Shown here piece by piece: positions 1-41,669 of a DNA stretch of 64,000 bases. The stretch's first letter is position 1, and the number at the start of each line of letters is the position of its first letter. The stretch comes from Paragorgia papillata (taxonomy: Eukaryota; Cnidaria; Anthozoa; Scleralcyonacea; Coralliidae), in contig JAWNZC010000419.1 of NCBI GenBank assembly GCA_035771165.1, positions 2,911,001-2,975,000 on the forward strand, written 5' to 3'. Position numbers and translations under genes: made by a program. The notes beneath the pieces are model-generated. The model was not told the DNA's origin, made no database searches, and was given only the letters and a program-made list of their open reading frames with translations.

Positions 1-863
1 CTGCCGAATTTCTCGATGTTAGTTCAACTTCGAGGTATTACAAGGGATCTTTCACGATTCATTGCTTCGACGATTTCTACCCATGTTGGCAACCAATCAA
101 GTGAACTTTATAAAACTCCAACCACGTCGGAAACAGATCGAAATCATTTGAAAAGCATTGTTTGAAGTAACTATTAAGTAAACCTTATGCTTCCCATGTG
201 CACGAGCCATCGCAGTTTTCGCTTGCGGTGAGTTTTCGTTTTGGGAAATGTCCTATCTGCTATATCTCCATCCAATATCCCCAATACAAAGTAAAGAGTT
301 TCCGTATTGAGCTGTTGAATCGACAAGAGCGATCCAATACACGTATTTTTTAAATCTTGGTTGACTAAAATGCGAATTGTCAAGCGTTTTACTGCAGCTC
401 TTTGTATCAGCCCAAATATGCTGAGTTTGGCGATACATTAATTATAGTTTCGTCTGGCGGTTTGTCGCCCCTTTGGGGTGCAAATTGTTTGGACAATGTT
501 TAAATATAAAATTGAGGTTGTTTTCCGTGACAATTCAGCCCATATTGTACAATTGTTTAATATTGTTTTTCAATGGTTCAACATTGTATTTTAGTAGACT
601 TCGGAACCCAGGTGAGATGACAGATGATTTTATTTCGGATTTCTGATATTTGTGTTCCGAAACATGTTCATCTGTTATGTAAATAGGAGTGACATATAGT
701 CAGCTTAAATATTGACATTTTTAGCAAAAAAAAACTCCATGGAAAAGCCTGTTATGGACATTTTTTGTAGTGTTTATTTCTATTTGTTGGAAATTTGATA
801 CTTTGAGTTTCTGTTTGTCAAAGGGAAGGATCTAGGAGGCAGTGGTTGACTAATATTAGTACA
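1..863. other. AT-rich stretch with no recognisable gene
   Basis: Only short open frames occur here, none with a recognisable domain. A longer low-complexity T-rich stretch lies around 480-800. I see no splice-linked exons and no clear repeat termini before the element that begins near 864. Confidence 0.5.
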
Positions 864-1600
864 ATGGAGCCGTGCTATAATGCGGTAGTTAGGCCAATGG
901 AATTGAGGTTTCAGTTTACTGTCCGAGGATTTTCAAAATGTGTTGCGGCTTTTGTTCATTATTCATTATTTGAATCATATTCATTTATCTTGTCCGAAAA
1001 TATAATGAAATCGATCTGTGGATCGACATGGACCAAGGGACGGCCATCACCCATCGTCAGCCTGACCCAAGAAAAATTTTCATAGTAATATTTCATGACA
1101 TCGTACCCTGGATGCCAGCCTGGATGCCACCCTGCAGTGATGACACACTACAGTGCAAATGATGTAAATAGTATATTTGAAAGTCCTGATGTGGAAAATC
1201 TACCAACAATGAAAATTATTTTGAATAATGAAAATTTCATGCAGTAGTTTTAAGCCCATGTGGGTGATGGACGGTAAACTGAAACCTTAATTCCATTGGC
1301 TTAGTGGTGACCGCGTTATAAATGAAGTGTGTTATTGTGAGGTACAGCCAAATATCTCATTCCCAGTAGTACTCTTCCCACTCAGTTCTGGCACAATATT
1401 GTGGGCTGACTACTTTCTGTTCGATTCTAACCTAACAATCCAAATCCCAACTGAAGAAGCTTGAAGTCCACTCAAGACTTCAACAAAATGAGATTGAAAT
1501 AAGATTTTTGAACGTGGTTTTCATTTCTCACTATGGTCACACTGCCGCATTGTCGTTTTATCTCATAATGATTCAGGGGCTCTGGAAGCTTTTCAAAGTT
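864..1600. mobile_element. Degraded copy of the TA-flanked CAGTG MITE family, interrupted by another palindrome
   Basis: The left end (CAATGGAGCCGTGCTATAAT, after TA) resembles the terminus of the better copy at 2025-2979. The internal text from about 1300 to 1575 (CCCAGTAGTACTCTTCCCAC and onward) is shared with that copy. Between about 893 and 1300 lies a second palindromic element: its arms run from CCAATGGAATTGAGGTTTCA to the reverse complement ending CCTTAATTCCATTGG. The right terminus of the outer copy is not clear. Confidence 0.6.
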
Positions 1601-2024
1601 GTGGGTGTCCTGCGTCTCGCAGAATGCCATAAACAGGGCCATGCCCTTCAGAGAATATAATAGATAACTAATAACTATATATACATAACATACAAGATAA
1701 CATCACAAGTTCACAACAACTTCAAGAGCTTTTAAAAAAAAATTATAAAACGAAAAGGTGGTGAACTGCATGCTGAGAATAGTTTTGATAATGAAATACT
1801 GATGTTTCGAGCAGGTCAAGCCACCAGGCAAAACCCTTTATCGAGTGGTTGACGGCTCTGCCTGTATTTGTATAGGGCAAAGTGAAAAGCTGGTAAACTG
1901 CTGAGATTGATTTTAATAACAAAATACTGATGTTTTAAGCAGAGCCATAATAAGCAAAGCCCTTCAGAGTATAAATAGGTTACAGTCAATAGCACAAAAC
2001 ATCAGTATTTCATTATTATACATA

Positions 2025-2979
2025 CAGTGAAGCCTTGCTATAACGCGGTGGTTGGGGTCCTTAGATGAAGCGCGTTATTGTGAGGTATGGCCAAATCTCG
2101 TTCCCAGTAGTACTCTTCCCACTCAGTTCTGGAGCAATATTGTGGGCCGAGTACTGGGAGTGAGATTGAGTACTGCCAGAAGCACTTTCTGTTCGATTCT
2201 AACAATCCAAATTGTGACTGAAGAAGCTTGAAGTCCACGCAAGACTTCAACAAAATGGAATTGAAATAAGGTTTTTGAGCATGGTTTTCATCTCTCACAG
2301 TGATCACACTGCCATGTTGTAAATGCGACTCGGTATAACACAGTTGATCCTTGGACCCCAAAATTTTACTTTTTCTGGTTTGTTAATTGACGACTAGTTA
2401 TACTAGCGACGTTTACCTATAACCATTATGAGATAAAATGACAACACAGCAGTGCGATCATTGCGAGAAATGAAAACCACACTCAAAAATCTTATTCCAA
2501 TTCCATTTTGTTGAAGTCTTGAGTGAACTTTAAGCTTCTTCTGAGTCGCTATTTGGATTGTTAGGTTTGAACAGAAAGTGCTTCTAGCAGTACTCAATCT
2601 TAAGCCTGGTACCCTGGCCCAATCAAAGAATATGGGCCAGGTAACCACTAAAGGCTTCTGCTTTCCTATTGGTTGAAATTTCACGCATTTTTAGTGACTA
2701 TGAGTAAAACTGCAATCGTCATAAGTGGATTTAGCCCTGATGACGTGAGAATGAGATTAGTCAGGTTACCTGGCCCATATTTCTTTTGCAATTGGGCCAG
2801 GGTACCAGGCTTACTCAATCTCACTCCCAGTACTCAGCCCACAATATTGCACCAGAACTGAGTGGGAAGAGTACTGGGAACGAGATATTTGGCCGCACGT
2901 CACAATAACACACTTCATTTATAACGTGGTCACCTCTAAGGACCCCATGCAACTACTGTGTTATAGTGAGGCTCCACTG
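2025..2979. mobile_element. Fold-back MITE, TA-flanked, CAGTG termini (pogo/Tigger-like)
   Basis: The element starts CAGTGAAGCCTTGCTATAAC and ends GTTATAGTGAGGCTCCACTG, an imperfect inverted repeat. TA dinucleotides sit immediately outside both ends (2023-2024 and 2980-2981). The internal arms are also inverted copies of each other, for example the CCCAGTAGTACTCTTCCCAC block near 2100 against its complement near 2870. CAGTG-type ends with TA duplication recall pogo/Tigger-derived MITEs; that family assignment is inference. It is interrupted by a second MITE at 2603-2811. Confidence 0.75.
2603..2811. mobile_element. AGCCTGG MITE, copy 1 (nested inside the CAGTG MITE)
   Basis: About 209 bp, beginning AGCCTGGTACCCTGGCCCA and ending with the inverted repeat GGGCCAGGGTACCAGGCT. 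The inner sequence, including ACTGCAATCGTCAT and CTATTGGTTGAAATTTC, recurs in four other copies in this window (35167, 35407, 53789, 62253). No transposase is encoded. Confidence 0.85.
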
Positions 2980-2981
2980 TA

Positions 2982-3604
2982 GTGATCAGTTTATTCCTTA
3001 AACCAGTACTTTGTCAACTTTTCCTATGGGAAGAAATCAGAGTACAGTACTCAGAGAGAAAATATACAATGCAATTGTCATTTGGTGTCTAGAGAGTCAA
3101 CAAATTATTTTCACATGAGATCATTAATGACCCAATGTCAGTTTATACAAGGCTTTGAAGTTTGAACTTGTGACCTTAGTGAATACTGTTGTATTGCCAA
3201 AAATTGTCATAATTTATCAAATTCTCATAATTTATCGAATTCTATGCTTCAATTATAGGCAAAATGGAAATACCTTCCCTCTTCTTCTTCTGTAGTTCAT
3301 TGCGTATTATTGTATTTCTGTAGCCACTATGGAGCCTGAGAAAATTTTTTGTTGAAAACTGTACATAAATTGTGTAATATAGCTTTAAATGGTGTTTATT
3401 CATAATACAATGGATGTTTATCCCAAATCGATACCAACAGACAAATATGCATTAAGAATTGGTGACTTATATCGCTAGACTTTCCTCACACTTCAGTAGC
3501 AGCTACAGATATACAGTAATACACAACCAACTATAGAAGCGGAAGTGGGAAGGTATTTCCATTTTGACTGTATATTAAGGCTGTTGCCCTTTATTTAATG
3601 CATA
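2982..3604. other. No gene seen; AT-rich intergenic
   Basis: No open frame with family resemblance was found. Nothing beyond ordinary AT-rich sequence was identified. Confidence 0.4.
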
Positions 3605-3817
3605 ATTAACTCATTCCTGTCTGAGGGCTTCTCCAGAGGTGAATAAAATCGTCTGGCGTTAGCCAGAAGAAAATACTAAAGACCAATTCGGACAGGAAAG
3701 AGTTAGAGAGATAGTTTATAACTCATTCCTGTCCGAGGGCTTCTCCAGAGGTGAATAAAATCGTCTGGCGTTAGCCAGAATAAAATACTAAAGACCAATT
3801 CGGACAGGAAATAATTA
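3605..3817. mobile_element. Two tandem copies of a ~100-bp TTAA-flanked MITE (AACTCATTCCTGTC family)
   Basis: Two near-identical units (about 3605-3704 and 3719-3817) each read AACTCATTCCTGTCYGAGGG, then AATCGTCTGGCGTTAGCCAG, and close with the inverted terminus GGACAGGAAA. TTA/TTAA lies at the edges. Related copies occur at 5107-5226, 6930-7080, 9700-9840, 45670-45780 and 45955-46075. Confidence 0.75.
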
Positions 3818-5106
3818 ATCTAAACAAACAAACCTTATATAAATGTCCTCTTTGCTTTTGTACTGTACGTTAATCCTTTAAGAGTTCCTGGCTTTCTTGA
3901 ATTCTTGTCCCAATTTTATATGGAAATCCTCAAATTCCAGTTACAAAAGGATGCAATAATTAGGATGTTAGCTAAGCTTGACATCTATCGAGTTTATATT
4001 TAGGGTGATGATTCAATTTTAAAGTCAGTCCTCCGAAAATGCTTACCATCTGGACATGATTATTTATACCTTGTTTCCTTTTCTGCTGTAACGTTAAATC
4101 TCAACTTTCAATTTTTGGTGACGTTTTGTGCATAATATTGCAAGTAAAAGTCAACATCAATACGATTGACTTAACGTTTTGTTATCTGTTGAAACTCAGA
4201 AGTTCATTACACCACGATTACACCAGTTCAGTTTTCACTTAGTTTTTTTGTTTACTTTCTTCTTAACTTGTTATCAATCACAGATATAATCACTCTGTCT
4301 TAATACCTTAGATCTCAAGTTTCTTCCTGATTGAATTCTTTAACAGTGATATACTCTATATCTAAATCTCTACTGTATTATTTTTAAGCTAGTTGTTTAG
4401 TTTTATTTAATATATTATATATACATTGAATTCTTGTATATATGTTCGAATTTAGAAATGATTTAGTGCCTCTTAGCTATTAATAAATAAAGTGAATTGA
4501 AAATAGACTTTTTTAACATAATAATTATCTTAAGCTGGTCTCAGGAATTTAAAACATCTGTCAATTTTTTAATTATATTTTTATTACTGAGTACAGCTGA
4601 TCGAAGTTGAGGATTTCAAATTAACTTTTGTCCATTATATTTCCAAAGTCTGCTGTGTATTACTGTGAACCATGCTGGTCTAAAGCAGTGAAATTTGGCA
4701 AGAATGATCACTCCCTGATCAACTCAAAAGAAAAGCACTTGAGGAAGATATCAAATAGCCAGAATGTCTAGTTTATTAATACAGAATTATGAAGATAAAT
4801 GTTACGGTTTTCTGCTTTCTGCTTCAATTCAATTTTAAAGTTCAGTTTGTTGTATTTTTACTGGTATGTTATGGTTTTGTTTTGTTGTTATTTAAATTAT
4901 AATTAAGAGGAATATATAGACAGTTTGAGAGCACTAATCTTTGAATACGTTTTGGCTGATGTAGTTGTTTTGTTTCCATGGTGTTATACCTTGCCCATGA
5001 ATTTGATATCAGATTATTATGTTGTGTGGATGCAGCTGTATCTTGTACATTGTATTATCAATCTGTTGCTTAAGTTGAATGTAATTATTCTTGTATTTTA
5101 TATTAT
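3818..5106. other. AT-rich stretch, no gene; possible retroelement tail near 4300-4500
   Basis: No exon or domain can be recognised. The TATTAATAAATAAAGTGAATTG text at 4478-4500 looks like the 3' untranslated tail of a non-LTR retroelement, but no coding part is left to confirm it. Confidence 0.3.
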
Positions 5107-36339: not shown

Positions 36340-36534
36340 TTTAAATTTTTATTGTATAAAACAAATAGATTCCATTTTTTTGTTGTCTGTTCAGTTATAG
36401 ATGCACAGAGGACGTCATAACGTGGTAAGAACATCAGTGACCCACTCGACTGCGTCTCGTGGGCCACTTTTTTGTTCTTACCACGTTGTGACGTCTTCTG
36501 TGCATCTATAACTGAACAGACAACGGCAAAATGG
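36340..36534. mobile_element. Left part of a palindromic MITE that is the target of the 5-kb palindrome
   Basis: AACAAATAGATTCCATTTT and GTTGTCTGTTCAGTTATAG are followed, after a 40-base loop, by CTATAACTGAACAGACAAC and GGCAAAATGG. The expected continuation AATCTATTTGTT is found only at 41525, on the far side of the 5-kb element. So this MITE has been split by it. Confidence 0.8.
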
Positions 36535-36548
36535 GGCTATCTTTAAAA

Positions 36549-36940
36549 GGGGGAACGGGGAATGGGGGAATCGGGGAATCGGGGAATGGGGGAATGGGGG
36601 AATCGGGGAATGGGGGAATCGGGGAATCGGGGAATGGGGGAATGGGGGAATGGGGGAATCGGGGAATCGGGGAATGGGGGAATCGGGGAATCGGGGAATG
36701 GGGGAATCGGGGAATGGGGGAATCGGGGAATGGGGGAATCGGGGAATGGGGGAATGGGGGAATCGGGGAATGGGGGAATCGGGGAATCGGGGAATCGGGG
36801 AATGGGGGAATCGGGGAATGGGGGAATCGGGGAATGGGGGAATCGGAAAAGGGGGAATCGGAAGAAGGGGAATCGGAAAAGGGGGAATCGGAAGAAGGGG
36901 AATCGGAAAAGGGGGAATCAGAAAAGGGGGAATCGGGTAG
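36549..36940 (+). repeat. 8-bp GGGGAATN minisatellite at the left end of the palindrome
   Basis: About 50 units of GGGGAATC/GGGGAATG, changing to GGAAAAGGGGGAATC / GGAAGAAGGGGAATC units near the inner end. Runs of four to five G every 8 bases make this strand a strong G-quadruplex candidate. The mirror array is at 41150-41497. Confidence 0.97.
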
Positions 36941-37598
36941 ACAAAGACAAAGGAATAACCAATCTGTTTACGCATTTATACATATAATAAAGACTAAAGT
37001 AAAATAAAGTAAAGTAAAGTAAAATAAAGTATTAAAAGTAAAATATATGTCGCTTGTTTCTGCTGTATAGTCTAGTCAATGTGCCAAACAGACCTTATGC
37101 ACCAGTGAGTTACGTGCGCGGTTTTATATTTTCTTTGCGGGTGTTTTTCTTTACTTTTACGCACATTTATTTACGTGGAAATACTATTCTGACCAAGGTA
37201 TTCTTTACAATAGCTATCTATCTGAAATCTCACACCGGGTGACACGCGTTTTGCTCGGAATATTTTAAGATCACAAATGATTGCAATCAAATTTCATAAT
37301 TTGATAAACGAATCCGTTCATTCTGTTTAGGCCGTTGTCTGTGTAGCCAAAAATTTCCGTTGCCCCCACCGCGGCGCTAAAATATTTCAACGGTATTTAG
37401 GAGATTTCGGCCTGCTGATTTCAAATTTCTTTGTTCCCACACGCAGAAACCCGCAGTTTTTGCGTTATCTTCCTCGGAATTCTTACATTTTTATCGGCTG
37501 TCGGCCATTTTGAATTCCGCGGTCCTTTTGATCTTTCGTTATTTTTACTTGAAGTACATCGCGGACACAAGGTACGTGGGCTCGTAAACAAGATAAAC

Positions 37599-37850
37599 AT
37601 GGAGGGTCGACCTCTTTCTTGCCAATGTTTTATTCATTTTCACGGAAAATCGGGAGAATTATTCATATTAACATCGCATACGGTGGTCAAAGTAAAAGAA
37701 TATTGCGAAAAATGGATTCATTTAGATGGAGAACAACAGGAAATCGCTACAAGAATCATTGACAGTGTACGAAGTTGGCCGCTAAATCTCCGCTTTGTTC
37801 AGAAGAGAACTGCTGTCTCAACTGCATATAAACGAAATTTAATTGCAAAC
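37599..37850 (+). CDS. Transposon 5' exon, left-arm copy (in frame)
   Basis: An ATG-initiated 84-codon exon ending at a GTAAGA donor in phase 0. It contains CQCFIHFHGKSGELF, then KEYCEKWIHLDGEQQEIA. This resembles the N-terminal Cys-containing domain seen ahead of HAFTG-type proteins in cnidarian repeats (recollection, not a search). A frame reaching back to 37431 exists, but the ATG at 37599 starts the recognisable part. Function is unknown; DNA binding is plausible. Confidence 0.6.
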
Positions 37851-38327
37851 GTAAGATATCACAAAATCTATAACTAAATTTCAAAATACCCGTCCACTTG
37901 TCAATTTAAGACGATGTCACACGCGGAAATTTCTTTTTTGCAACTTGCAACGCAAATTTGGATGAAAATATATTGCAAGTTCCTGTAGGAATTTACTTAT
38001 GCAACTTGTTGTCTGATCTAGAATGCAACTATTTTGCAAAGAAAAAGAGTTCTGCTATAACTTGAAATGCCGTTGCGTTGTAAGTTGCAAGAAAAAATTG
38101 CCTCGTGTAACATCACGTTCGTATTGCAAACTTATTACCTTATCCTTGAAATATTAAATGTTTTTTACCCAATTTTTACCTAGTAATTAACTTTATGACA
38201 TAAAGTGTTCTTGGGCAGTCTCTCAAAAATGCGCACAGCTACAGTGCAAGAAACAATTAATTTCCTTACAGTACTTCAGTTTAACAGAGAAATAATATAT
38301 TTTATATGTACATATAAAGTTCAAGTT

Positions 38328-38938
38328 TCACTCCACATCTTCATCACTTGACACACCAGCTCCAGCACCATATTCAATGTCTTCTTCTGCAGCATTCTCA
38401 GGACAATTGGTGCTTCCAGTGCACTGGCACATTTCAGTACAGCGATTTGTTGCTTTTTTTGCAGGAGCATCTCATTGTCTTGCAGCCGGTTTTGCATTTA
38501 CAGTTACAGTTTAGTAACAGTACATCAGGAGCACACTTCTTATCCATCCATACAACAGCAATTCTTCTATCCTCATCAATCTTCCAGCCATGGTTTGTAG
38601 GACTCGGTGCATTTATTACAGGTGTTGTTGATCTTTTCCATATTGCTGCCTGGTAATTTGCACGCTGAATGTACTTTGAAAGGCAGTCCTTATTTGGGGG
38701 CAATGCAGCATCAGAAAATTTACCCATTTTAAACATGTTGTACCTTGCTTCATCTACAGAAGTGGTATTCTTTGCTTTATACAATTTGCAAGTAAGTGAT
38801 TCAAGATTCATCTCAAGTGTTTCATCAATGTTGAAATCATTTCCCACTTGTCCAAGTGTCTCAATCGATGTTTGATCACCAGAAAGTATATTCCAGCTTG
38901 ATATCTTCCTGCGACCATAAAATGAACTGGTAGAATCA
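38328..38938 (-). pseudogene. Transposon 3' Cys-rich exon, left-arm copy
   Basis: Inverted copy of the exon at 39152-39763. Read on the minus strand it starts at DSTSSFYG and has TCKLYKAKNTTSVDE, NYQAAIWKRS and NHGWKIDED. The cysteine cluster CNCKCKTGCKTMRCSC then follows, and a stop at 38434 is caused by a 7-base A run. It lacks the preceding exon and splice acceptor, so it cannot be expressed as part of a protein in this orientation. It differs from the right copy at a few positions (GRRK for GHSK, DEAR for DEGR). Confidence 0.8.
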
Positions 38939-39763
38939 TTGACATAAATGTCAATCATGTTGTGGAACAGATTGGTGAAAATAAATGTGAAGCATTAATT
39001 GGATTTCATGCATTTACAGGTATTAAAGGAATCATTAGTTTTGATTTACAAATTGTTAATAATTTAATCAAATCAAGCAACATGTTTAAAAAAAAAACTT
39101 GTCAACCTTTCAGCATCTGTGACAATGTATATTTTTCTTATATTTTTAGGCTTGTGATTCTACCAGTTCATTTTATGGTCACAGCAAGATATCAAGCTGG
39201 AATACTTTCTGGTGATCAAACATCGATTGAGACACTTGGACAAGTGGGAAATGATTTCAACATTGATGAAACACTTGAGATGAATCTTGAATCACTTACT
39301 TGCAAATTGTATAAAGCAAAGAATACCACTTCTGTAGATGAAGGAAGGTACAACATGTTTAAAATGGGTAAATTTTCTGATGCTGCATTGCCCCCAAATA
39401 AGGACTGCCTTTCAAAGTACATTCAGCGTGCAAATTACCAGGCAGCAATATGGAAAAGATCAACAACACCTGTAATAAATGCACCGAGTCCTACAAACCA
39501 TGGCTGGAAGATTGATGAGGATAGAAGAATTGCTGTTGTATGGATGGATAAGAAGTGTGCTCCTGATGTACTGTTACTAAACTGTAACTGTAAATGCAAA
39601 ACCGGCTGCAAGACAATGAGATGCTCCTGCAAAAAAAGCAACAAATCGCTGTACTGAAATGTGCCAGTGCACTGGAAGCACCAATTGTCCTGAGAATGCT
39701 GCAGAAGAAGACATTGAATATGGTGCTGGAGCTGGTGTGTCAAGTGATGAAGATGTGGAGTGA
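38936..39763 (+). CDS. HAFTG / Cys-rich transposon protein: middle exon, intron and 3' exon
   Basis: The middle exon, running to 39018, reads DINVNHVVEQIGENKCEALI and then GFHAFTG, with a donor at 39019. The intron 39019-39151 ends TTTTTAG. The 3' exon starts CDSTSSFYG at 39152, so the HAFTGCDS motif known from this family is rebuilt exactly at the splice. TCKLY, NYQAAIWKRS, HGWKIDEDRRIAVVWMD and CNCKCKTGCKTMRCSC follow. A stop at 39655-39657 comes after a run of seven A. In the next frame, cysteine-rich coding continues to a TGA at 39761-39763. The part upstream of DINVNHV is missing, cut by the palindrome junction. Family function is not established; transposase-related is inferred. Confidence 0.75.
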
Positions 39764-40240
39764 AACTTGAACTTTATATGTACATATAAAATATATTATT
39801 TCTCTGTTAAACTGAAGTACTGTAAGGAAATTAATTGTTTCTTGCACTGTAGCTGTGCGCATTTTTGAGAGACTGCCCAAGAACACTTTATGTCATAAAG
39901 TTAATTACTAGGTAAAAATTGGGTAAAAAACATTTAATATTTCAAGGATAAGGTAATAAGTTTGCAATACGAACGTGATGTTACACGAGGCAATTTTTTC
40001 TTGCAACTTACAACGCAACGGCATTTCAAGTTATAGCAGAACTCTTTTTCTTTGCAAAATAGTTGCATTCTAGATCAGACAACAAGTTGCATAAGTAAAT
40101 TCCTACAGGAACTTGCAATATATTTTCATCCAAATTTGCGTTGCAAGTTGCAAAAAAGAAATTTCCGCGTGTGACATCGTCTTAAATTGACAAGTGGACG
40201 GGTATTTTGAAATTTAGTTATAGATTTTGTGATATCTTAC

Positions 40241-40493
40241 GTTTGCAATTAAATTTCGTTTATATGCAGTTGAGACAGCAGTTCTCCTTCTGAACAAAGC
40301 GGAGATTTAGCGGCCAACTTCGTACACTGTCAATGATTCTTGTAGCGATTTCCTGTTGTTCTCCATCTAAATGAATCCATTTTTCGCAATATTCTTTTAC
40401 TTTGACCACCGTATGCGATGTTAATATGAATAATTCTCCCGATTTTCCGTGAAAATGAATAAAACATTGGCAAGAAAGAGGTCGACCCTCCAT
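40241..40493 (-). pseudogene. Transposon 5' exon, right-arm copy (frameshifted)
   Basis: Inverted copy of 37599-37850 with one extra G (AGAAGGAGAAC for AGAAGAGAAC on the coding strand). The extra base ends the reading frame about 10 codons later. The GTAAGA donor is preserved. Confidence 0.8.
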
Positions 40494-41149
40494 GTTTATC
40501 TTGTTTACGAGCCCACGTACCTTGTGTCCGCGATGTACTTCAAGTAAAAATAACGAAAGATCAAAAGGACCGCGGAATTCAAAATGGCCGACAGCCGATA
40601 AAAATGTAAGAATTCCGAGGAAGATAACGCAAAAACTGCGGGTTTCTGCGTGTGGGAACAAAGAAATTTGAAATCAGCAGGCCGAAATCTCCTAAATACC
40701 GTTGAAATATTTTAGCGCCGCGGTGGGGGCAACGGAAATTTTTGGCTACACAGACAACGGCCTAAACAGAATGAACGGATTCGTTTATCAAATTATGAAA
40801 TTTGATTGCAATCATTTGTGATCTTAAAATATTCCGAGCAAAACGCGTGTCACCCGGTGTGAGATTTCAGATAGATAGCTATTGTAAAGAATACCTTGGT
40901 CAGAATAGTATTTCCACGTAAATAAATGTGCGTAAAAGTAAAGAAAAACACCCGCAAAGAAAATATAAAACCGCGCACGTAACTCACTGGTGCATAAGGT
41001 CTGTTTGGCACATTGACTAGACTATACAGCAGAAACAAGCGACATATATTTTACTTTTAATACTTTATTTTACTTTACTTTACTTTATTTTACTTTAGTC
41101 TTTATTATATGTATAAATGCGTAAACAGATTGGTTATTCCTTTGTCTTT

Positions 41150-41497
41150 GTCTACCCGATTCCCCCATTTCTCCCCGATTCCCCCTTTTCTGATTCCCCC
41201 TTTTCCGATTCCCCTTCTTCCGATTCCCCCTTTTCCGATTCCCCCATTCCTCGATTCCCCCATTCCCCGATTCCCCCATTCCCCGATTCCCCGATTCCCC
41301 CATTCCCCGATTCCCCCATTCCCCCATTCCCCCATTCCCCGATTCCCCGATTCCCCCATTCCCCGATTCCCCCATTCCCCCATTCCCCGATTCCCCGATT
41401 CCCCCATTCCCCGATTCCCCGATTCCCCCATTCCCCCATTCCCCGATTCCCCCATTCCCCGATTCCCCGATTCCCCCATTCCCCCATTCCCCGTTCC
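41150..41497 (-). repeat. 8-bp minisatellite at the right end of the palindrome
   Basis: ATTCCCCC/ATTCCCCG units, the reverse complement of the left-end array but about 45 bp shorter. Followed by TTTTAAAGATAGCC and the target duplication. Confidence 0.97.
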
Positions 41498-41669
41498 CCC
41501 TTTTAAAGATAGCCGGCAAAATGGAATCTATTTGTTAAATGGAAACATGGCAAGGTCCACGCCATCATTCAGTGTAGGATACGCCATCATACGCCATTAC
41601 TGAAGAGTAAGGAGAATTTACGCTTTGATGCAGTGATTATTTTTACGTTCTATACCTATTTTCGACAGG

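Follow-up and report, generated by a model that had tools for sequence, protein, structure and literature searches.

Several described systems combine inverted repeats with mobile or broken DNA. In Galileo of Drosophila, extended terminal inverted repeats (TIRs) are reported to derive from recruited internal sequence, and copying of one end onto the other has been proposed (PMC3573991). Mutator/Foldback elements with long composite repeats are known from Tm1 of root-knot nematodes (PMC3169594) and from Rehavkus and other Mutator-like elements (MULEs), Rehavkus being recognized by a 9-bp target site duplication (TSD), a minisatellite before the 3' TIR and a PHD finger (PMC6446971). AcademX elements are reported to have 3- or 4-bp target duplications and an encoded nuclease (PMC10045372), and Mu killer of maize is described as a partial inverted duplication of a transposase gene, including copies of its terminal repeat, for which a hairpin RNA has been proposed (PMC3440606). 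In yeast, short templated fold-back insertions at breaks have been reported (PMC11724301). The present work concerns a 5-kb palindromic insertion in a 64,000-nucleotide stretch of Paragorgia papillata DNA (GCA_035771165.1, contig JAWNZC010000419.1, positions 2,911,001 to 2,975,000), termed the window. The insertion was found to consist of two nested transposon families, not one element.

Two nested families in one palindrome

The palindrome has a left arm of 2404 bp (36535-38938), a centre of 216 bp and a right arm of 2360 bp (39155-41514). Its termini, GGCTATCTTTAAAAGGGGG, start at 36535 (+) and 41514 (-) and both adjoin the 10-mer GGCAAAATGG, which bears out what had been proposed from the letters alone (the sequence-only reading), namely a discrete insertion with a 10-bp duplication and arms of these lengths. 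The longest ungapped inverted repeats were 1085 and 886 nt, and with the minisatellite excluded the arms differed by 3 substitutions and 3 gap columns in about 1980 positions, in agreement with the ~99% identity estimated earlier. The substitutions all lie at most 192 bp from the centre, and one 1-base gap lies elsewhere. The expected G-rich array was present in each arm; the two arrays are identical for just 37 bp from the terminus and then diverge in unit order and length. Each arm also carries one 5' exon and one 3' Cys-rich exon in opposite orientations, as had been claimed, with the correction that the reading frames are broken in the window copy. The centre is single-copy as described, and in addition a further exon ends within it.

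The host assembly (618 Mb, 473 contigs) was searched for other copies, as the sequence-only reading had suggested. In what follows, C labels denote contigs of this assembly and L labels denote stretches taken from it for comparison, and the copy numbers are lower bounds as the palindrome search scored the best 40 of 338 candidates. A second copy of the palindrome was found on contig C471, with 99% identity over positions 22-4975 of 5000 and a different 10-bp duplication of its own, CCAACTGCAG. Side-specific arm differences were common to the window and C471 copies, and the window palindrome was confirmed as real.

One half of the palindrome, numbered inward from half 1 (window 36525) to half 2414 (38938, the inner edge of the arm), was mapped on 35 assembly stretches (L017 gave no match). 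The partial copies from the assembly search fell into two sets abutting at one and the same point of the query, and the palindrome is a composite with part boundaries at 37327/37328 and 40764/40765. The outer 0.8 kb was found without the inner part, and there continued inward as GTGGAAAACG or GTAGAAAACG in all ten printed arms, from seven loci picked because the match reaches half 803. At nine loci both outer ends were found and the flanking 10-mers were compared by eye. The duplication was exact (10/10) in the window, in C471 and in C311 (GTAGCCATCG), and inexact in C14 and C320 (9/10), C189 (8/10), C350 (7/10), C23 (6/10) and C75 (3/10). The outer family thus has a duplication within the 8-11 bp of MULEs, and inverted arms of ~0.3-0.8 kb, that is, the long TIRs of a MULE, were observed in L030, L031, L035, L036 and L038.

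The outer-family element on C311 spans 19,495 bp between its own exact duplications and bears on the minus strand an open reading frame (ORF) that has homologues with MULE domains. Among 37 aligned homologues of this ORF, matches at E <=0.01 were obtained to PF10551 in nine (best 4.9e-6) and to PF00872 in four (best 2.5e-5), so that a MULE/Transposase_mut catalytic domain is predicted for the family by homology only. The nearest named relatives of the ORF are octocoral sequences, from Dendronephthya gigantea (75%) and Paramuricea clavata (52-61%), and they point to an octocoral as the probable host. In each arm the outer 0.8 kb represents an end of a Mutator-like family, and the earlier suggestion of a long-TIR Mutator-like element holds for this part and fails for the exon-bearing inner part. 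The further suggestion of a Rehavkus-like element was abandoned, as the TSD has 10 bp, a minisatellite is located within each end repeat, and no PHD domain occurred among the Pfam matches (E <=0.1) of seven C311 ORFs. In the same C311 element an uninterrupted ORF of 446 aa (L045:2803-4140, corresponding to C311:70003-71340) encodes a protein kinase domain (PF00069, E 1.9e-37), and further unnamed ORFs are present, which makes it a large, cargo-carrying MULE.

The inner part (37328-40764) was found without the outer part in other flanking contexts, where it begins TAGGCCGTTG or differs from this by one base. Scanning of 18 copies revealed two end types, A and B. Both ends were located in seven non-composite copies, and every one of these pairs an A end with a B end and is flanked by a 3-bp duplication, read by eye (C399 TCT, C139 CGT, C193 AGG, C51 ATA, C467 GTC, C206 ATG, C158 TTA), in line with the 3- or 4-bp TSD of AcademX. 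The fetched stretch held one end only for C172, C6, C400, C324, C376, C381, C86a and C289 and neither for C86b; the remaining two are the composites. Palindromic inner copies of a young subfamily are C399, C172, C139, C6 and C193, some of which bear insertions, and palindromic copies of an older subfamily, about 77% identical, are C467, C206, C158, C376, C381, C86a, C86b and C289. The flanks of C86a and C289 are alike (95%), and these two may be one duplicated insertion; C86b is left-truncated, and C51 is an 812-bp derivative. In C193 (293249-310696) two long insertions interrupt the inner palindrome, and one of these is in turn an inverted repeat (1.8 kb, 98.7% identity). The inner part belongs to a second family, distinguished by ends and 3-bp duplications of its own and by a palindrome that already existed. 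The exons belong to this family, and the single fold-back lineage put forward earlier was therefore discarded.

The features of the insertion are collected in Table 1. The insertion target was itself a short palindromic miniature inverted-repeat transposable element (MITE). In a related MITE without the insertion (L041, C322), eight of the ten target bases are present once and the other two fall within a 21-bp deletion.

Table 1. Features of the composite palindrome and its target in the window.
Feature	Position	Strand	Basis
Short palindromic MITE, the insertion target (edges approximate); right end resumes at 41525	36359..36524	+	related copy L041 (C322)
10-bp TSD GGCAAAATGG, left	36525..36534	+	flank comparison
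Outer MULE-family arm, left; terminus GGCTATCTTTAAAAGGGGG, minisatellite, ends ...CATTCTGTT	36535..37327	+	segment without inner element in L030, L031, L034-L038
G-rich minisatellite, left	36549..36937	+	
Inner element, left arm; end type A with small deletion	37328..38938	+	
5' exon, left copy (right edge approximate)	37599..37850	+	ORF; matches first exon of C400 gene
3' Cys-rich exon, left copy (broken frame; edges approximate)	38434..38938	-	
Single-copy centre: nuclease-like exon end and last intron	38939..39154	+	same exon end in C400
Inner element, right arm; also end type A, identical small deletion	39155..40764	-	
3' Cys-rich exon, right copy (broken frame; edges approximate)	39155..39657	+	
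5' exon, right copy (inner edge approximate)	40242..40493	-	mirror of left copy
Outer MULE-family arm, right	40765..41514	-	
G-rich minisatellite, right	41155..41500	-	
10-bp TSD GGCAAAATGG, right	41515..41524	+	

Formation of the composite

In the window and C471 copies alike, both inner ends are of type A and both carry an identical small deletion. The inner part is flanked in these two copies by GTT on the left and AAC on the right, in inverted orientation and with no 3-bp duplication. The reference-anchored inner arms of the window differ only at half 2223, 2363-2364, 2384 and 2388 (of 2414), and because all of these differences recur in C471, the palindrome predates the separation of the two copies. 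Over half 803-1480 the window arms show no substitution, while the arms of four other young copies diverge by 1.2-7.5% (C6 was not measurable). The shared end type and deletion, the missing 3-bp duplication and the near-identical arms together fit fold-back copying of one side onto the other.

One interpretation of these data, and the likely one in our judgement, is a nested origin followed by one-sided fold-back copying and MULE-type transposition of the whole unit. A non-autonomous, already palindromic Academ-like derivative, making 3-bp duplications, would have integrated within the end repeat of a Mutator-like element, which makes 10-bp duplications. A break to one side of the centre of the inner palindrome would then have allowed the broken strand to fold back on the other arm and to copy outward through the inner arm, the inner A end and the MULE end, the result being a 5-kb palindrome, nearly perfect and bounded on either side by a MULE terminus. 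MULE transposase acting in trans could subsequently have moved the whole unit to at least two sites, those in the window and on C471. Fold-back synthesis and the action of MULE transposase on the composite are inferred; the two families with their two kinds of duplication, the composites at two sites, the shared end type and deletion, the missing 3-bp duplication and the inheritance of the inner palindrome among older-subfamily copies are shown by the data.

Several observations weigh against this account or are neutral to it. The predicted donor, a MULE end that holds the inner element between direct GTT copies, gave no match to one exact-match pattern in the whole assembly, where mutation or loss would hide it, and the C311 ORF itself matched no Pfam family. 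Only the 2-bp deletion among the arm differences is certainly older than the composite, being present in one arm of C399 and of C139; 2388-T is found also in C324, while those at half 2223 and 2384 seem to be confined to the composite and might have arisen by later mutation. A 1-base gap near 37805, beyond the near-centre stretch, is private to the left arm of the window copy. The minisatellites measure 424, 381, 565 and 427 bp to the same anchor in the four composite arms, with no side pattern; these arrays neither back nor contradict copying, and they require fast turnover. In the left arm of C471 a cluster of changes lies between half 1820 and 1895, which is best read as a later, separate conversion event.

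A proposal that concerns function, and is compatible with fold-back copying and MULE transposition, is that the inner palindromes are a silencing locus, in which inward promoters give self-complementary RNA against gene-bearing Academ-like copies, as a mobile analogue of Mu killer. The 5' region and 5' exon point inward in both arms and the 3' exon is present in both directions, so that read-through of either strand would yield a hairpin, given the presumed promoter activity of the arms. The proposed hairpin RNA of Mu killer, arising from a partial inverted transposase-gene duplication, provides a precedent (PMC3440606). However, inheritance as a palindrome is equally expected of any non-autonomous transposon, and this proposal is regarded as unlikely.

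It was also considered that the insertion could be a single long-TIR MULE of Rehavkus or Foldback type, with terminal repeats that had lengthened to 2.4 kb and had taken up a fragment of an Academ-like gene in both arms. The MULE-like outer ends, long repeats, minisatellite and 10-bp duplications would all suit such an element. The inner part, however, is found elsewhere with its own ends and 3-bp duplications and is palindromic there without MULE arms; as a sole explanation the single MULE is refuted by these free-standing palindromes, and we regard it as very improbable.

Inverted flanks of the GTT and AAC kind would likewise result if, with no fold-back copying, the inner element had inserted at the centre of an already perfect MULE palindrome whose arms meet at CATTCTGTT. 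All ten printed outer arms, from the seven loci whose match extends to half 803, however, run past CATTCTGTT into the inward continuations described above, and the identical end type and small deletion at both sides would be left unexplained; on these grounds a perfect-palindrome target was rejected, and little probability is attached to it. False palindromes are a known class of assembly artefact, but an artefact of haplotype or read fold-back was rejected as extremely improbable given the exact 10-bp duplications at two sites, the second copy, the unequal arm lengths, the side-specific differences common to both copies and the several inner palindromes at other sites.

The inner palindromes and their gene-bearing relatives

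The arms of six older-subfamily copies were compared after C289 (flank common with C86a) and C86b (left arm incomplete) had been dropped. Over half 803-1230 the divergence was 3.64% between same-side arms, 7.35% between opposite-side arms and 7.22% within a copy, a contrast reached by 2 of 64 label assignments, the minimum possible. The corresponding values over half 1840-2203 were 2.84%, 4.59% and 4.38% (4 of 64 label assignments). In a tree of the outer part the arms separate by side. Because these arms cluster by side and not by copy, the older-subfamily palindromes were copied in palindromic form through transposition. In the tree of the 3' exon the A-side arm of C206 falls among the B-side arms, and some arm-to-arm conversion must therefore have taken place.

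In the young subfamily, grouping by side in the outer part was seen only for C399 and C139, which differ by 0.6% in their B arms and 1.2% in their A arms and whose within-copy arm divergence is 1.2% and 2.4%; in C172 and in C193, each arm groups with its partner in the same copy. Relative to the ends, the centre lies in opposite orientations in C399 and C139, and the 2-bp deletion near the centre lies on different arms in the two, that of the B end in C399 and that of the A end in C139. Arm-to-arm exchange therefore flipped the centre. C193 is arranged like C399, C172 and C6 were assigned likewise from one end each, and the seven older copies with visible ends, two of which have a common flank, are all arranged like C139.

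A single exact anchor string is present in seven copies, six of which are palindromes with an identical joint between arm and centre (two being the composite), and it is not present in C193. The filler at this young joint is an inverted copy of neighbouring bases, and it is missing from C400, the seventh anchor copy. The joint of the older subfamily lies elsewhere, within the 3' exon. Since the joints differ, the palindromes of the two subfamilies are suggested to have arisen separately. The loop between the innermost inverted matches is 218-221 bp in 8/8 older copies (L021-L028) and 216 bp in the window, despite the different joints.

In a search of the assembly with the nuclease-like protein, in which the best 94 of 293 candidates were scored, the closest gene-bearing relative is C400. 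Its gene comprises a first exon matching the 5' exon of the arms, further ORFs and a 536-aa ORF with the nuclease-like part; the 3' Cys-rich exon is present with its frame broken. The right side of C400 matches the right arm of the palindrome piecewise, including the inverted 5' exon region, which may be older than the palindromes or may have been acquired by recombination with one. The left end was not found with a tolerance of 2 mismatches over its first 16 bases. The other close relative, C111, was examined as a possible parent of the older subfamily. Here homology stops inside the 3' exon and an inverted arm was not detected, so that C111 shows only an exon order that is not palindromic. 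The nuclease-like protein family is large and diverse in the host assembly (at least 96 matches), and of the scored candidates only C400 and C111 are close to the window element.

The nuclease-like protein has 188 homologues (E <=0.001), and the named ones among the 120 listed are from cnidarians, a sea cucumber and a mollusc. Of three homologues scanned, one had a match to the CXC domain (PF03638) above the cut-off and another had one below. The C400 protein itself had no Pfam match, and neither did the C400 ORFs upstream of the nuclease-like part, candidates for an Academ DDE transposase, have one above the cut-off; among 50 homologues, Pox_G5 was matched in two and 5_3_exonuc_N in one, weakly and amid other weak matches. 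A sequence search of the PDB with the nuclease-like protein gave nothing useful, and a structure model had a mean pLDDT of 80.5 and a pTM of 0.64. The nuclease of Academ elements is of XPG type. The protein may be such a nuclease and the inner element an Academ; this tentative assignment draws also on the 3- or 4-bp duplications and the nuclease reported for AcademX (PMC10045372), and the closest gene-bearing relative looks Academ-like.

Relation to known systems

Long palindromes are held to be unstable, and the growth of transposon terminal repeats has mostly been inferred. In this one genome several steps are seen together, namely a relative that bears the gene, two subfamilies of inner palindromes with different joints, variants whose centre is inverted, and a hybrid of two superfamilies whose movement followed palindrome formation. 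The case supplies markers by which fold-back copying of transposons can be recognized, and it offers a natural setting in which to ask whether a palindrome that moves sets off silencing of its parent. It could be, although we hold it to be doubtful, that such elements are mobile hairpins, in that Academ-like palindromes would arise repeatedly (two joints, loops of 216 versus 218-221 bp), spread, make double-stranded RNA against the gene-bearing parent and even be taken over by a MULE. The nuclease of the parent may help to make or to tolerate palindromes. If the mobile-hairpin idea is true, the silencing trigger is itself a transposon.

In the literature searched, no palindromic exon-bearing family that is inherited by transposition and then mobilised by a second superfamily was encountered, which is no proof of its absence in print. 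As in the composite, the longer inverted repeats of Galileo come from internal sequence and chimeric copies lack matching target duplications; Galileo, however, belongs to the P superfamily, and the sections of that report consulted describe neither a composite of two superfamilies nor exons in both arms of a near-complete palindrome (PMC3573991). Tm1, Rehavkus and other MULEs have long, composite or repeat-rich TIRs like those seen here, with TSDs of 8-11 bp in MULEs and a minisatellite in Rehavkus. The TSD reported for Tm1 and Rehavkus is 9 bp, whereas that of the window element is 10 bp and only its outer 0.8 kb is MULE (PMC3169594, PMC6446971). AcademX resembles the inner family in its 3- or 4-bp duplications and in encoding a nuclease, which is putative for the inner family, and differs, as far as it is described in PMC10045372, in that the copies of the inner family are derivatives, palindromic and poor in genes. 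Mu killer is likewise a partial inverted duplication of a transposase gene with terminal-repeat copies, but it is reported as one locus, whereas the palindromes here are inherited as transposons and may have a silencing role by analogy (PMC3440606). Terminal-repeat expansion is thus already known, and the composite is an instance of that kind.

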